This document shows positions 42,614 through 55,412 of a DNA stretch of 64,000 bases, piece by piece (within the stretch, counting starts at the first letter, position 1; each line of letters starts with the position of its first letter). Source of the DNA: Rhizobium sp. NXC24 (GTDB lineage Bacteria; Pseudomonadota; Alphaproteobacteria; Rhizobiales; Rhizobiaceae); NCBI RefSeq assembly GCF_002944315.1, contig NZ_CP024311.1, forward strand, positions 1,402,501-1,466,500, read 5' to 3'. Made by a program: the position numbers and the translations under genes. Under the pieces are notes generated by a model, which saw nothing but the letters and a program-made list of their open reading frames with translations, searched no databases and was not told the DNA's origin.

Positions 42614-45600
42614 ATGACGGTTGAAATTATCGGACGGGCGAGTGTTGCCCCGGGCGCGGATTCGATTGAAGAACTGCACCTCGTCCTCAAGGAAGGACGT
42701 TGCACGGTCAACCGGATCCCCGATGAACGCTGGGATCTCGCACGTTTTTGGCACCCCGTCGTCGGTACGCAAGGGAAAACCTATAGCTACGCCGCCGGCG
42801 TCATGGCCGACATCTACTCTTTTGACCCTGCAGTCTTCGGTCTTTCGCAGCGTGAGGCGATGCAGATGGATCCGCAGCAGCGCATCCTTCTGAACCTCGT
42901 CTGGCGGGCTTTGGAAGATGCGAATTTGCCCGTCGATAGCTTCGAAGGCGAAAGGGTCGGCGTCTATGTCGGCGCTTCCTCGCTTGACCACGGCAATCTC
43001 ACCGCCGAAGATCCGGCCGCTGGCAGCCCGTATTTCATGACGGGCAACACGCTCTCGATCGTTTCCAACCGCATTTCGCATATTTTCGGCCTACATGGCC
43101 CGAGTATGACGATCGATACGGCCTGCTCGTCGTCGCTCGTGGCGCTCGATCAGGCGGTGAGGGCGCTGGAATGCGGCGATATCGATACTGCGATCGTCGG
43201 CGGCATCAACCTTCTGGTTCACCCGCTATCGTTCGTCGGCTTTTCCCAGGCGCGCATGCTGTCGCCGGAAGGGCTTTGCCGCGCCTATGACGATAATGGC
43301 CGCGGTTACGTTCGCGCGGAAGGCGGCGCGGCCATCATCCTGCGCAGGACAGATCGCGCTTTGCGTGAGAAGGATCGCAGTTACGCTCGGCTCCATGCGA
43401 TCGGGGTGAATTCTTCCGGCCGTACAAATGGGATTTCGTTGCCGTCGCGCGATGCACAAGCCGCTTTGCTGCGTTCGATCTATGAAGGGCAGAACATCGA
43501 CGTCAACCGCATAGCCTTCATCGAAGGTCATGGTACGGGGACTAAGGTTGGCGATCCCGCCGAGATTTGGGCGATCGGCAATATCATTGGCCGGAACCGC
43601 CGGGCGCCGGTGCCGGTCGGCTCAATCAAGTCCAATATCGGCCATACCGAGCCCGCCTCCGGTCTTTTCGGCCTGCTGAAGGCGATGATCGCGCTGGAGA
43701 ACAATTTTCTGCCGGCATCGCTGCATTTCGAGCAGCCGAATGAAACCATCGATTTCGAAGGATTGAACGTTCGGGTCAATACATCGGCCATCGAGCTCCT
43801 TCCGGCCAAACGGCCGCGCTTTGCCGGCATCAATTCCTTCGGCTTCGGGGGCACGAACGCCCATGTCGTCATCAGCGATCCCGATCCGGTCGCTCCGCCC
43901 GAACCACCATTGCGGGGCGAGGGCACGATTTTCGTTGCGAGCGCTCATACGGCTTCGGCGCTGTCGAAGCTGCTCGAGGACTACAGGAGCCGGCTCGAAC
44001 GGGCAGAGCCCAAGGAAGCCCGGCAGATCATCGCGGCCGCCGCTGCCAATCGCGAACCGATGCGCCACCGTTTCGCCGCCAAGGCCAAAGACAGCGCCGC
44101 AGTGCTTGCGGCGATCGATGCGCATCTTGACGGTGAAAATTCCGTTGGTGAGGTCGGCGAAGTGCCGGGACAGGCGATCAAGATCGCCTTCGTCTTTTCC
44201 GGCAACGGCTCGCAATGGGCGGGCATGGGCGTCGAGGCTTATCGGGAAAACAGCCATTTCCGGCAGTGTTTTCAGTCGTTCAGCGCGCTCTTCGAATATT
44301 ATCTCGCCGAGAAGCTTACGGATATCCTGGTTTCCTCCGATTTATCCATGCGGCTCGCCGACACCAAGATCGCGCAGCCTCTGCTTTTTGCAATTCAAGC
44401 CTCCCTATCGGACTGCTTCTCGGCGCTCGGTGTGAAGCCCGATGCCGTCTTTGGCCACTCCGTCGGCGAAATCGCCGCCGCCTATGCGGCCAAAGCGCTG
44501 ACGGCAGCCGAAGCGGTCGCGATCGTCGCCAAGCGTTCGCTGCATCAGGATCTTCTCGCCGGAGAAGGCAAGATGGCTGCGGTCGTTCTCAACGAGGATG
44601 CGGCGCTCGCCTTCGCCAAATTGCACGGTCTCCACGACATCTGCATCGCAGCGATCAACGCGCCGAATTCGATAACGATTTCTGGCCCGGTCCATGAGAT
44701 CGAAGCATTCAAGGAGGCAGCTCGCAAGTCGCAGATCGTCGCGCATATCCTCGACATCAACTATCCCTTTCACCATCCGATCATCGATCGGGCAAAGGAC
44801 GCCTTTCTGGCCGATCTGCCTGACGTCGCACCGGATGCCGGCAGCGGCACCTTCATTTCAACGGTAACCGGCGCTGCCTGCGACGGCCGTTTGCTCGATG
44901 CTCAATACTGGTGGCGCAATGTTCGCGATCCCGTGCTTTTCAAGACGGCCTGTCAGGCGGCCATGGCGATGGGATGCAACCTGTTCATTGAAATCGCGCC
45001 GCGCCCGATCCTTTCGAATTACATGACGGAGATCGCCAAGCAGGCGTCCGTCCAGGCGGTTGCCATACCGACATTGCTGCGGGAGCCGCCGCTCTCCGGG
45101 CGGGATCCGGTTTCGCAGGCTTTTGCGCGCGCTGTCGCACATGGCGCGTCGGCGCTGCGTTCGCGCGGCAGCGCCACGCGCAATGCCTTCGTTAAGCTGC
45201 CGTCTTTGCCGTTCGAACCGGTGGAGCTGCGTTCGCAGCCAACAACGGACGAAATCGACATTTTTGGCCGCGACGGCAAGAGCCCTTACACCCTGCTGGG
45301 CTGGCGCACGGACCCCAACGCCTCCACCTGGAAGAACCATCTGGATGCGCATCTCTTCGCCGATCTCGCCGAACATGTCGTCGACGGCAAGTCGATCTTG
45401 CCGGGCAGCGGTTTCATCGAGATCGCCGTCACGGCAGCTCAGCGATATTACCAGACGGATGCGGTTGAGATCGGCAATCTCGAAATCGTCAGACCCTTGG
45501 AACTGCGGCAGGATCGGATGGTGGAACTGTCGACCATCCTTTCCCCGGAGACGGGCGATATCGAGATCCGCTCGCGTGAGAGGCTGAGCAACGACGACTG

Positions 45601-54072: not shown

Positions 54073-55412
54073 TGGCTGACGGGCAGGGGGATGCAGCGGC
54101 TTCTCCGCGTGTCTTTCTTTTCCTGCAAGGGCCGTCCTCACCGCTTTTCGTTGAAATCGCCGGGGGGCTGGAAGCGGCAGGCCATCGCTGCATACGCATC
54201 AACCTCAACCCGGGCGATTGGATATTCTGGCGCCGCCGTGGCGCCTTCAATTATCGCGGCGGCTTTGCCGGTTGGCGCAGCTACGTTCGCCGCCGAATCG
54301 AGGCCGACAGGGTCACGGACCTGATTCTTCTCGGGGAAGAGCGCCCGTACCATCAAGTCGCCATCGAAGAGGCGAGGCGGCGAGCCGCTAGTATCAATGT
54401 CGTCGAGATGGGATATCTGCGGCCGGATTGGGTGACGCTCGAGCGTGACGGAATGTCATCCAATTCCCGTTTTCCCGTCGATCCGCTATACCTCGTCCAG
54501 GCCGCGGCGAGCCTTCCCGAGCCGGACTGGAGCCGTCGCTTCAGTCACAGTTTCCTGGCCGAAGCGGCCTATGATCTCCTCTACAATCTTCCCAACGCTT
54601 TTCTGTGGTTTCTCTATCCCGGCTATCGGCGCCATGCGCTCTATCATCCGCTGGTGGAATATGCGGGCTGGCTCCGCCGGCTGCCGTCGAGCGGCAGGCG
54701 TGCACGGGAAGCGGAGGCGACCATCGAGTGCTTGATCACCGCTGAGACGCGATTCTTCGTCTATCCCCTGCAGCTTCAGACGGATTATCAACTCCGCTCG
54801 CACTCGCCCTTCCATCGACAGCAGGATGCAATCAAGCAGATCATGCAGTCGTTTGCCGCGCACGCAGCGCCAAACATGCATTTGGTTATAAAGCTTCATC
54901 CGCTCGACAATGGGCTTGTCGACTGGAGGGGCTATATCCACGGCATAGGCGCAAGGCTCGCCCTGTCCTCCCGCATCCATTTTATCGACGGCGGCAATCT
55001 CGAAAAATTGATTTCGGCAAGCCAGGGCATGGTGACGGTCAATTCCACCGCCGCACTTTCCGCCCTGCAGGCTGAGAGACCGGTAAAAGCCCTTGGAGCG
55101 GCGATCTACGATATCGACCGTCTGACGGACCAAAAGCCATTGGACCTCTTCTGGGGCAATCCAGCAAAGCCGTTGCCCGGCCTTCGCAGCGCATTTCTGA
55201 AACTGCTTGCCGCATCGGTGCAGGTGCGCGGGAATTTTTACTCGCGGGCCGGCGCACGGGCGGCATCCGCTGAGATCGCTAAGCGGCTCCTATCGCGAAG
55301 CGTCAACCTCCCGGCCGCCTATATCGACCCGCCGCCACGGCAAAGGCCGACAAAGATCGATATTCCCGACCCGAAATTGACATACCCTCCGCCTATGGGA
55401 GATTCGCGTTAA
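54072..55412 (+). CDS. rkpJ: RkpJ, KpsS-like capsule protein
   Basis: 446 residues from the ATG at 54072 (TGATG overlap with rkpI). Capsule_synth (KpsS/KpsC) motifs: VFLFLQGPSSPLFVEIAGGLEAAGH, FVYPLQLQTDYQLRSHSPF, VIKLHPLDNG and GMVTVNSTAALSALQAERPVK. E. coli KpsS and KpsC are Kdo transferases that build the glycolipid linker of group 2 capsules on lysophosphatidylglycerol. By analogy RkpJ may add the first sugar to the lipid made by RkpA/G/H, but this is inference. Last gene of rkpAGHIJ. Confidence 0.9.
   Translation: MADGQGDAAASPRVFLFLQGPSSPLFVEIAGGLEAAGHRCIRINLNPGDWIFWRRRGAFNYRGGFAGWRSYVRRRIEADRVTDLILLGEERPYHQVAIEEARRRAASINVVEMGYLRPDWVTLERDGMSSNSRFPVDPLYLVQAAASLPEPDWSRRFSHSFLAEAAYDLLYNLPNAFLWFLYPGYRRHALYHPLVEYAGWLRRLPSSGRRAREAEATIECLITAETRFFVYPLQLQTDYQLRSHSPFHRQQDAIKQIMQSFAAHAAPNMHLVIKLHPLDNGLVDWRGYIHGIGARLALSSRIHFIDGGNLEKLISASQGMVTVNSTAALSALQAERPVKALGAAIYDIDRLTDQKPLDLFWGNPAKPLPGLRSAFLKLLAASVQVRGNFYSRAGARAASAEIAKRLLSRSVNLPAAYIDPPPRQRPTKIDIPDPKLTYPPPMGDSR

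Follow-up and report, generated by a model that had tools for sequence, protein, structure and literature searches.

Which lipid do the rkpAGHIJ genes of Rhizobium sp. NXC24 make, and what does it do for the capsule? These genes occupy part of a stretch of 64,000 nucleotides (hereafter the window; RefSeq assembly GCF_002944315.1, contig NZ_CP024311.1, positions 1,402,501 to 1,466,500 of the forward strand) from a genome of 7.3 Mb in 4 contigs. In work cited in passages of PMC3557214 and PMC4881576, the rkp-1 genes have been proposed to make or modify a lipid carrier or anchor. For Pseudomonas fluorescens MYb115, passages of a recent paper (Peters 2025, PMC12134224) report that C24-C28 sphinganines depend on the iterative polyketide synthase (PKS) SgaA together with its partner SgaB, and that SgaB has biochemically demonstrated serine palmitoyltransferase (SPT) activity that is virtually exclusive for serine. 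Here we argue that rkpAGHIJ probably, though by no means certainly, constitute a dedicated pathway in which a PKS-derived sphingoid lipid serves as the acceptor or anchor of an ABC-transporter-dependent capsule. The case is built on gene order, domains, conserved residues, clade membership and linkage to capsule genes.

An initial annotation of the window, made from its sequence alone, had described five tightly packed genes for a synthase, an alpha-oxoamine synthase (AOS), a short-chain dehydrogenase/reductase (SDR), an LtaS-like and a KpsS-like protein. All five are indeed there, with conserved catalytic motifs:

42614-50071, plus strand: rkpA, 2485 aa, a single-module, fully reducing type I PKS/fatty acid synthase without a thioesterase (TE), SgaA-like
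50068-51489, plus strand: rkpG, 473 aa, a pyridoxal phosphate (PLP)-dependent AOS of the SgaB clade, with K295 in GTLSK
51508-52359, plus strand: rkpH, 283 aa, an SDR resembling 3-ketosphinganine reductase (KDSR), with the signature PPDTLTP
52378-54072, plus strand: rkpI, 564 aa, a membrane protein with a C-terminal phosphoglycerol-transferase domain of the GacH/LtaS type
54072-55412, plus strand: rkpJ, 446 aa, KpsS-like, with a beta-Kdo (3-deoxy-D-manno-oct-2-ulosonic acid) transferase fold and the putative nucleophile D238

The rkpA and rkpG reading frames overlap by 4 nt (ATGA), and 18 nt separate rkpG from rkpH and, again, rkpH from rkpI. The start of rkpJ was taken at the ATG at 54072, so that it shares 1 nt with the rkpI stop (TGATG); the mechanical start of that open reading frame (ORF) would be the TTG at 54012.

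RkpA has the domain order ketosynthase (KS), acyltransferase (AT), dehydratase (DH), enoyl reductase (ER), ketoreductase (KR) and acyl carrier protein (ACP), as assigned with Pfam:

42620-43732, plus strand: KS, aa 3-373, PF00109/PF02801
44189-45085, plus strand: AT, aa 526-824, PF00698, with GHSVGE and YPFH
45314-46108, plus strand: DH, aa 901-1165, PF21089/PF14765
47927-48823, plus strand: ER, aa 1772-2070, PF08240/PF13602 (ADH_N and ADH_zinc_N)
48893-49426, plus strand: KR, aa 2094-2271, PF08659
49757-49948, plus strand: ACP, aa 2382-2445, PF00550, with the GLDS serine

Because Pfam finds no domain past the ACP (2382-2445 of 2485 aa), we regard RkpA as TE-less. Expected motifs are present in the KS (TACSSS, EGHGTGT, KSNIGH), AT (GHSVGE), DH (HVVDGKSILPG, DAAFH), KR (YVAAN) and ACP (GLDS); the preset pattern for the ER found no match, yet the glycine motif HGAAGGVGLAALQVAK is visible in the ER stretch of the translation. 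The swf clusters of sponges were considered as close relatives of rkp and rejected, PMC3908369 itself setting SwfA apart from RkpA/WcbR in the relevant passage.

The identity of the lipid hinges on RkpG. It carries the PLP lysine K295 in GTLSK, with H187, D260, H263 and R417 at the places expected for the family, residues that we presume to act as they do in SPT-type enzymes. A tree of 80 AOS domains, built quickly under LG+G4 with Shimodaira-Hasegawa-like approximate likelihood ratio (SH-aLRT) support only, places RkpG and the SgaB orthologues in one clade of 46 rows (support 100), with an inner clade of 32 rows at 99. This clade is distinct from the alphaproteobacterial SPT (100) and from 2-amino-3-ketobutyrate ligase (KBL, 100), and RkpG is not found among the BioF or 5-aminolevulinate synthase (ALAS) rows. 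Clustering with biotin-type enzymes, which the initial annotation had named as one outcome that would undo its reading, is therefore not what we see. The union of the RkpG/SgaB clade with SPT has a support of 93, which is not strong, and two of the 48 rows labelled RkpG-like beforehand (L027 and L028) fell outside the clade. The residue preceding the PLP lysine is serine in RkpG, SgaB and SPT (GT[LF]SK), and glycine (GTLGK) in the KBL, BioF and ALAS rows used for comparison (two of each); glycine is also found in the BioF-like sequence L174. RkpG is 51% identical to an SgaB orthologue, with closely matching active-site motifs, and the nearest relatives that bear an organism name come from Rhizobium.

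One result speaks against a sphingoid role of RkpG. Its best NCBIfam score is for bioF (TIGR00858, 351.9 bits, below the cut-off of 426.45), and the SPT models score lower, all of them short of their cut-offs (NF047599, 262.6 against 500; NF047600, 287 against 640; NF047603, 211.6 against 670); nor does any protein of the host genome match the SPT model NF047603 at E 1e-120. Taken alone, such a ranking would favour the biotin-type assignment. However, the SgaB orthologue likewise ranks bioF first, and for SgaB the SPT chemistry is proven. Judged by its sequence, RkpG thus appears to work like an SPT without belonging to the canonical NCBIfam SPT families (NF047599, NF047600, NF047603). The earlier proposal of a sphingoid-base AOS is supported by the SgaB clade and the SPT-like GTLSK, even though the canonical cut-offs are not reached.

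For the next step, RkpH contains GGSSGIG, S139/S140, Y153 and K157, that is, the catalytic Ser/Tyr/Lys of an SDR, and a PPDT.TP signature that we take to be KDSR-like. It supplies the cluster with an SDR that could reduce a 3-ketone, a trait by which membership of an SgaAB-type pathway may be judged. The SDRs of these clusters fall into two lineages, each with a support of 98: one, characterised by P[PS]DT.TP, contains RkpH, a further three proteins of Rhizobiaceae and four SDRs linked to an AOS, and the other holds the SDRs of Pseudomonas, Halomonas and Burkholderia type. The notion that RkpAGH are simply the orthologues of SgaABC was therefore dropped for RkpH. On the other hand, the recruitment of two different reductases would fit a need for 3-keto reduction. 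In a profile search with the RkpH clade, 19 proteins among the best 120 of 7904 relatives are named 3-dehydrosphinganine reductase, one Rhizobium and one Sinorhizobium protein among them, the others having generic names or none. A sequence search of the Protein Data Bank (PDB) with the C-terminal part of RkpH returned nothing relevant. The earlier description of RkpH as resembling a 3-ketosphinganine reductase gains some support from the catalytic residues, the signature and the relatives' names, in a comparison made through those names.

Does the sga cluster, too, lie among capsule genes? The main text of PMC12134224 contains no match for "rkp" or "capsul" and treats the lipids as secondary metabolites, and the role of SgaC is proposed rather than shown in the passages concerned. 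We used the sgaAB primer stretches printed in that paper to locate orthologous Pseudomonas loci. In L064 (Pseudomonas putida 31753) the primers are colinear with 0/22 mismatches at the sgaA start, 4/23 at the sgaA end and 6/21 at the sgaB end; in L156 (Pseudomonas) the respective figures are 0/22, 1/23 and 3/21, again colinear. Both loci have the same gene order, PKS and AOS followed by convergent genes for PhyH, KpsC, GNAT, an LtaS-like protein, the SDR, KpsS and KpsC (the first KpsC of L064 being split over two ORFs). Counting from the AOS, the SDR comes fifth, as the MYb115 locus tags RS19800 (sgaB) and RS19775 (sgaC) would have it. Given the colinear primers, the capsule genes and the position of the SDR, it is very probable, as judged from the sequence of orthologous loci, that the sga cluster for sphingolipids is a locus of the capsule type. 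Among Pseudomonas, the AOS occurs in 17 of 398 genomes, with KpsS, KpsC or LtaS-like genes at 13 of the 17 loci.

Two further features of these loci deserve mention. The PhyH gene (phytanoyl-CoA-dioxygenase family) beside the Pseudomonas AOS, at L057:17240-18283, L064:12764-13807 and L156 (reverse complement) 11613-12656, is a candidate for a sphinganine-chain hydroxylase. The gap between AOS and PhyH in L156 (about 10040-11610, reverse complement) holds short ORFs at a 133-base spacing, as expected of tandem repeats.

The linkage between such lipid genes and capsule genes extends beyond Pseudomonas. In named genomes, the best-scoring 80 loci were taken with an alignment led by the AOS sequence of a Pseudomonas plasmid, and the set is biased towards that sequence; 25 of them were dropped as shorter than 18 kb, and 4 of the remaining 55 lacked a PKS scoring above 1500 bits, leaving 51. 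Neighbours were called with custom hidden Markov models (HMMs) built from annotated loci and the window. A gene for KpsS, KpsC, an ABC permease, KpsE, outer-membrane polysaccharide export (OPX) or an LtaS-like protein lies within flanks of about 10 kb at 45 of the 51 PKS-AOS loci; capsule genes alone are counted at 29, an LtaS-like gene at 28 and an SDR at 25. An evenly drawn phylum sample gave matches in 25 of 398 genomes, and 12 of its 17 long PKS loci (11.6-19.5 kb) contain capsule or LtaS-like genes. With the same HMMs, none of 20 control loci of other AOS (SPT, KBL, BioF, ALAS; 16-20 kb) contains such genes, one SDR being seen. The link between lipid pathway and capsule assembly drawn in the initial annotation is therefore recurrent near PKS-AOS pairs and absent from the controls. 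In Burkholderiaceae, an LpxC-family deacetylase gene lies between PKS and AOS (L058:18898-19824, L059:14887-15801 and others; PF03331, 219.6 bits in L059), and in many cases a GNAT gene follows the AOS; the deacetylase may act on the nitrogen of a sphingoid base or its precursor.

The last two genes would join the lipid to the glycan. RkpI has an alkaline-phosphatase-type domain with a threonine and a set of metal ligands, placed after transmembrane helices (five long helices in the model, four by hydropathy alone); E294, T334, H453, D503 and H504 are invariant in a 26-row alignment, and we presume that their roles are those of the LtaS residues. The label LtaS-like holds for the GacH/LtaS type as a whole, but the nearest relative is GacH rather than LtaS, and by sequence RkpI looks like a phosphoglycerol transferase. 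RkpJ matches PF05159 with 297.5 bits and reaches 206.8 bits with the KpsS model NF050054, whose cut-off is 600, so that it can be called KpsS-like and no more. A PDB sequence search with RkpJ alone gave nothing relevant, and its profile detects KpsC weakly (E 0.0026); comparison of folds is clearer, placing RkpJ with GT-B proteins nearest to beta-Kdo transferases of the KpsC/WbbB type. Ranked by E-value, Foldseek lists UDP-GlcNAc 2-epimerase first, but with low TM-scores. D238 is invariant in a 21-row alignment and is the candidate nucleophile, on the assumption that the KpsC residue roles apply. From sequence and model together, RkpJ looks like a beta-Kdo transferase, in agreement with the glycosylating role given to it earlier.

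How these parts may work together can be formulated as follows, the amino acid, chain length, RkpI and RkpJ acceptors and step order being what we infer for this organism. Working iteratively, RkpA would build a long, saturated acyl chain that stays bound to its ACP. RkpG would condense that chain decarboxylatively with an amino acid, serine being the likeliest, and so release 3-ketosphinganine, and RkpH would reduce the ketone to give sphinganine. RkpI could then transfer phosphoglycerol from phosphatidylglycerol (PG) to the 1-hydroxyl of sphinganine, creating a one-chain lipid that mimics lyso-PG, and RkpJ would place the first beta-Kdo on the phosphoglycerol head group, whereupon the capsule would be built on that lipid and exported. 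As a whole, the earlier reading, in which the amino lipid would take the place of lyso-PG as capsule anchor, is thereby partly supported and made more specific.

Several observations weigh against this scheme, and they do so to different degrees for its different parts. As to orthology, RkpA is only 35% identical to the SgaA orthologue of L156 over 2544 aligned columns, RkpI is 26% identical to its Pseudomonas counterpart, and RkpH, coming from the other SDR clade, is not an SgaC orthologue. As to capsule linkage, 6 of the 51 named loci have neither capsule nor LtaS-like genes and 23 have no LtaS-like gene in their flanks; of the other 4 of the 17 Pseudomonas loci, L161 and L162 are shorter than 12 kb, and L163 and L164 are of full length and have no KpsS, KpsC or LtaS-like genes. 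Around related AOS encoded by plasmids of Streptomyces and Planktothrix, the annotation shows no capsule gene within 14 kb, which indicates that the chemistry reaches beyond capsule use. (In both, the RkpG-like AOS forms the end of a longer protein: at L062:10359-15182 in Streptomyces anthocyanicus, a 1607-aa protein whose front part has no PKS-HMM match, and at L063:7581-15179 in Planktothrix agardhii, within an annotated type I PKS.) Furthermore, the host genome contains no two-domain KpsC, its only PF05159 proteins being RkpJ and one other match (81.3 bits, positions 142-310).

These exceptions lead to the strongest competing explanation, namely that the sphingoid lipid of RkpA, RkpG and RkpH is not the covalent anchor at all but a free membrane lipid, a signalling metabolite or a lipid required by the exporter, with (lyso)PG anchoring the capsule itself, as it does in group 2 of E. 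coli. We consider this unlikely, but it deserves to be taken seriously. According to passages of PMC12134224, the sphinganines and phosphoglycerol sphinganines of P. fluorescens occur as free lipids that affect the nematode host, as this explanation would have it, and some PKS-AOS loci do lack nearby capsule genes. The poly-Kdo of S. meliloti 1021 reportedly has a phospholipid anchor, as the title of a paper names it; the anchor meant could be either plain PG or our proposed phosphate-bearing lipid. On the other hand, linkage to capsule or LtaS-like genes recurs at 45 of 51 loci, and the passages of PMC4881576 and PMC3557214 cite rkp-1 as tied to capsule export and to a specific lipid carrier.

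A second, still less probable explanation keeps the anchor lipid of RkpA, RkpG and RkpH but takes RkpI off it: RkpJ would add Kdo directly to the sphingoid or to a head group provided by another enzyme, and RkpI would add phosphoglycerol to the exported glycan. The modification of the amino lipid by RkpI is indeed the weakest step of the earlier reading. By analogy with LtaS, the catalytic domain of RkpI probably faces the periplasm; RkpJ, like the cytoplasmic KpsS, should work on the other side. The order RkpI before RkpJ would thus either need lipid flipping or be wrong, meaning in our preferred scheme that the RkpI product is flipped back or that RkpI acts after export. GacH-type enzymes act on extracytoplasmic glycans. 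Moreover, G265, a genome of the same family as the host, keeps RkpA, RkpG (80% identical) and RkpH together with an OPX gene at one locus (L031), and a search of its whole 80-contig draft at E 1e-10 did not recover RkpI; a pair of neighbouring RkpJ-like proteins (41%) is encoded on a different contig. If the PKS/AOS/SDR core and a KpsS-like protein are retained in this manner, either another enzyme adds the head group or RkpI stands outside the lipid path. A related arrangement is seen in L122, L126, L137 and L138 (Roseibium, Stappia, Hongsoonwoonella), where two tandem KpsS-like genes accompany a KpsC-like and an OPX gene and no LtaS-like gene lies within the flanks. What speaks for RkpI on the lipid is that orthologous loci hold an LtaS-like gene between GNAT and SDR, and that free phosphoglycerol sphinganines were deduced in MYb115 from +154 Da species (PMC12134224, in the relevant passage).

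In a variant of this second explanation RkpG would use glycine, alanine or cysteate, giving a 1-deoxysphingoid, an aminoketone or a sulfonolipid. An identity of 51% to the SgaB orthologue leaves room for a different amino acid, but the active-site motifs of RkpG are close to those of SgaB with its near-exclusive use of serine. Finally, that RkpG is a biotin-type 8-amino-7-oxononanoate synthase or a KBL, with RkpA making a fatty acid for lipid A or an undefined acyl carrier, is very improbable, because the best NCBIfam score and the many database entries named "8-amino-7-oxononanoate synthase" in its favour are outweighed by a score below the bioF cut-off, a place outside the BioF and KBL clades, GTLSK instead of GTLGK, the equally bioF-first ranking of the SgaB orthologue, and the separate KBL, ALAS and BioF-like copies in the host genome.

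The anchor model also has to be seen in its genomic surroundings. The plus-strand block 41088-55412 comprises rkpU, rkpA, rkpG, rkpH, rkpI and rkpJ, with tRNA genes and a nuo gene downstream, and a divergent export set occupies 31762-38389 on the minus strand:

41088-42269, plus strand: rkpU, OPX protein, Pfam Poly_export/SLBB
37079-38389, minus strand: inner-membrane export protein of KpsE/BexC/CtrB type, NCBIfam TIGR01010 242.2 bits, below the cut-off of 437.5
36415-37068, minus strand: KpsT-type ABC ATPase, Pfam ABC_tran, custom HMM 398 bits, the gene itself being among the HMM seeds
35120-36508, minus strand: second KpsE-like protein, custom HMM 398 bits, no Pfam match, the 5' part of the ORF possibly non-coding
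31762-33966, minus strand: family 2 glycosyltransferase, Pfam Glycos_transf_2, a likely member of the capsule locus

Two further proteins of the minus-strand set (38358-39497 and 34002-35207) have no Pfam match; in the Shinella capsule plasmid locus L061, comparable positions are taken by hypothetical proteins. With a Shinella query, the genome yields a single KpsM permease homologue (56% identity), at 1385381-1386151 of contig C4 (genome G000), and the KpsT/KpsE-like genes of the window (36415-38389) are thus on a different contig. Among the nuo genes sits a small ORF (58253-58603), which to our mind resembles a four-helix-bundle protein of the 23S rRNA insert type.

Extended beyond this organism, our model would describe an entire class of capsules, ABC-dependent and found across Pseudomonadota (rhizobia, Pseudomonas, Halomonas, Burkholderia and relatives), which are built on PKS-made phosphoglycerol-sphinganine rather than on a glycerophospholipid. 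The phosphoglycerol sphingolipids of MYb115 would then be capsule acceptors, their makers would be RkpA, RkpG, RkpH and RkpI or else SgaA and SgaB with an SDR and an LtaS-like protein, and sphingolipid synthesis and capsule assembly would be one pathway. We regard the chances of this wider claim as evenly balanced. If it were true, the view of capsule initiation would change for many soil, marine and plant-associated bacteria, the phosphoglycerol head group on a bacterial sphinganine would be explained, and many bacteria not counted as sphingolipid producers would make sphingolipids for their capsules. Among the matches listed for open-licence PMC papers, no title links sphingoid lipids to capsule anchors. 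Relative to the literature found, what is new is the sphingoid identity, the assignment of a phosphoglycerol step to RkpI, the role of RkpJ and the view of the sga locus as one for a capsule; the idea of a lipid carrier or anchor made by rkp-1 is old. Our proposal gives the rkp-1 lipid, under discussion since the 1990s, a chemical identity and joins it to the 2025 discovery of PKS-made sphingolipids.

Taken together, the rkp locus can be placed among known systems. With SgaAB(C) of MYb115 it shares a single-module TE-less PKS beside an AOS of the same clade and an SDR, and the orthologous loci also have LtaS-like, KpsS and KpsC genes; it differs in the lineage of RkpH and in having no adjacent PhyH, GNAT or KpsC gene. 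With rkp-1 of Sinorhizobium (Petrovics 1993 and Kiss 1997, as cited) it shares the gene names, but the lipid is left unnamed in the passages of PMC3557214 and PMC4881576, whereas a sphingoid is proposed here. Compared with the canonical bacterial SPT pathway (Spt, bCerS, CerR), the AOS chemistry and GT[LF]SK are the same; RkpG, however, scores far below the NCBIfam SPT cut-offs, its acyl chain would be PKS-bound, and a KDSR-like SDR follows. In E. coli group 2, lyso-PG is the acceptor of KpsS and KpsC, as a passage of PMC7694667 describes. The KpsS-like RkpJ with its beta-Kdo fold, the KpsE/KpsT-type genes nearby and the resemblance that phosphoglycerol-sphinganine would bear to lyso-PG recall that system, from which the rkp locus departs in having no two-domain KpsC in its genome and a dedicated PKS/AOS/SDR/GacH-like set that would make the acceptor. 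RkpI, finally, has the fold, the invariant Glu/Thr/His/Asp-His set and the preceding transmembrane helices of GacH and LtaS, but its presumed acceptor would be a sphingoid base instead of a glycan or a teichoic chain.

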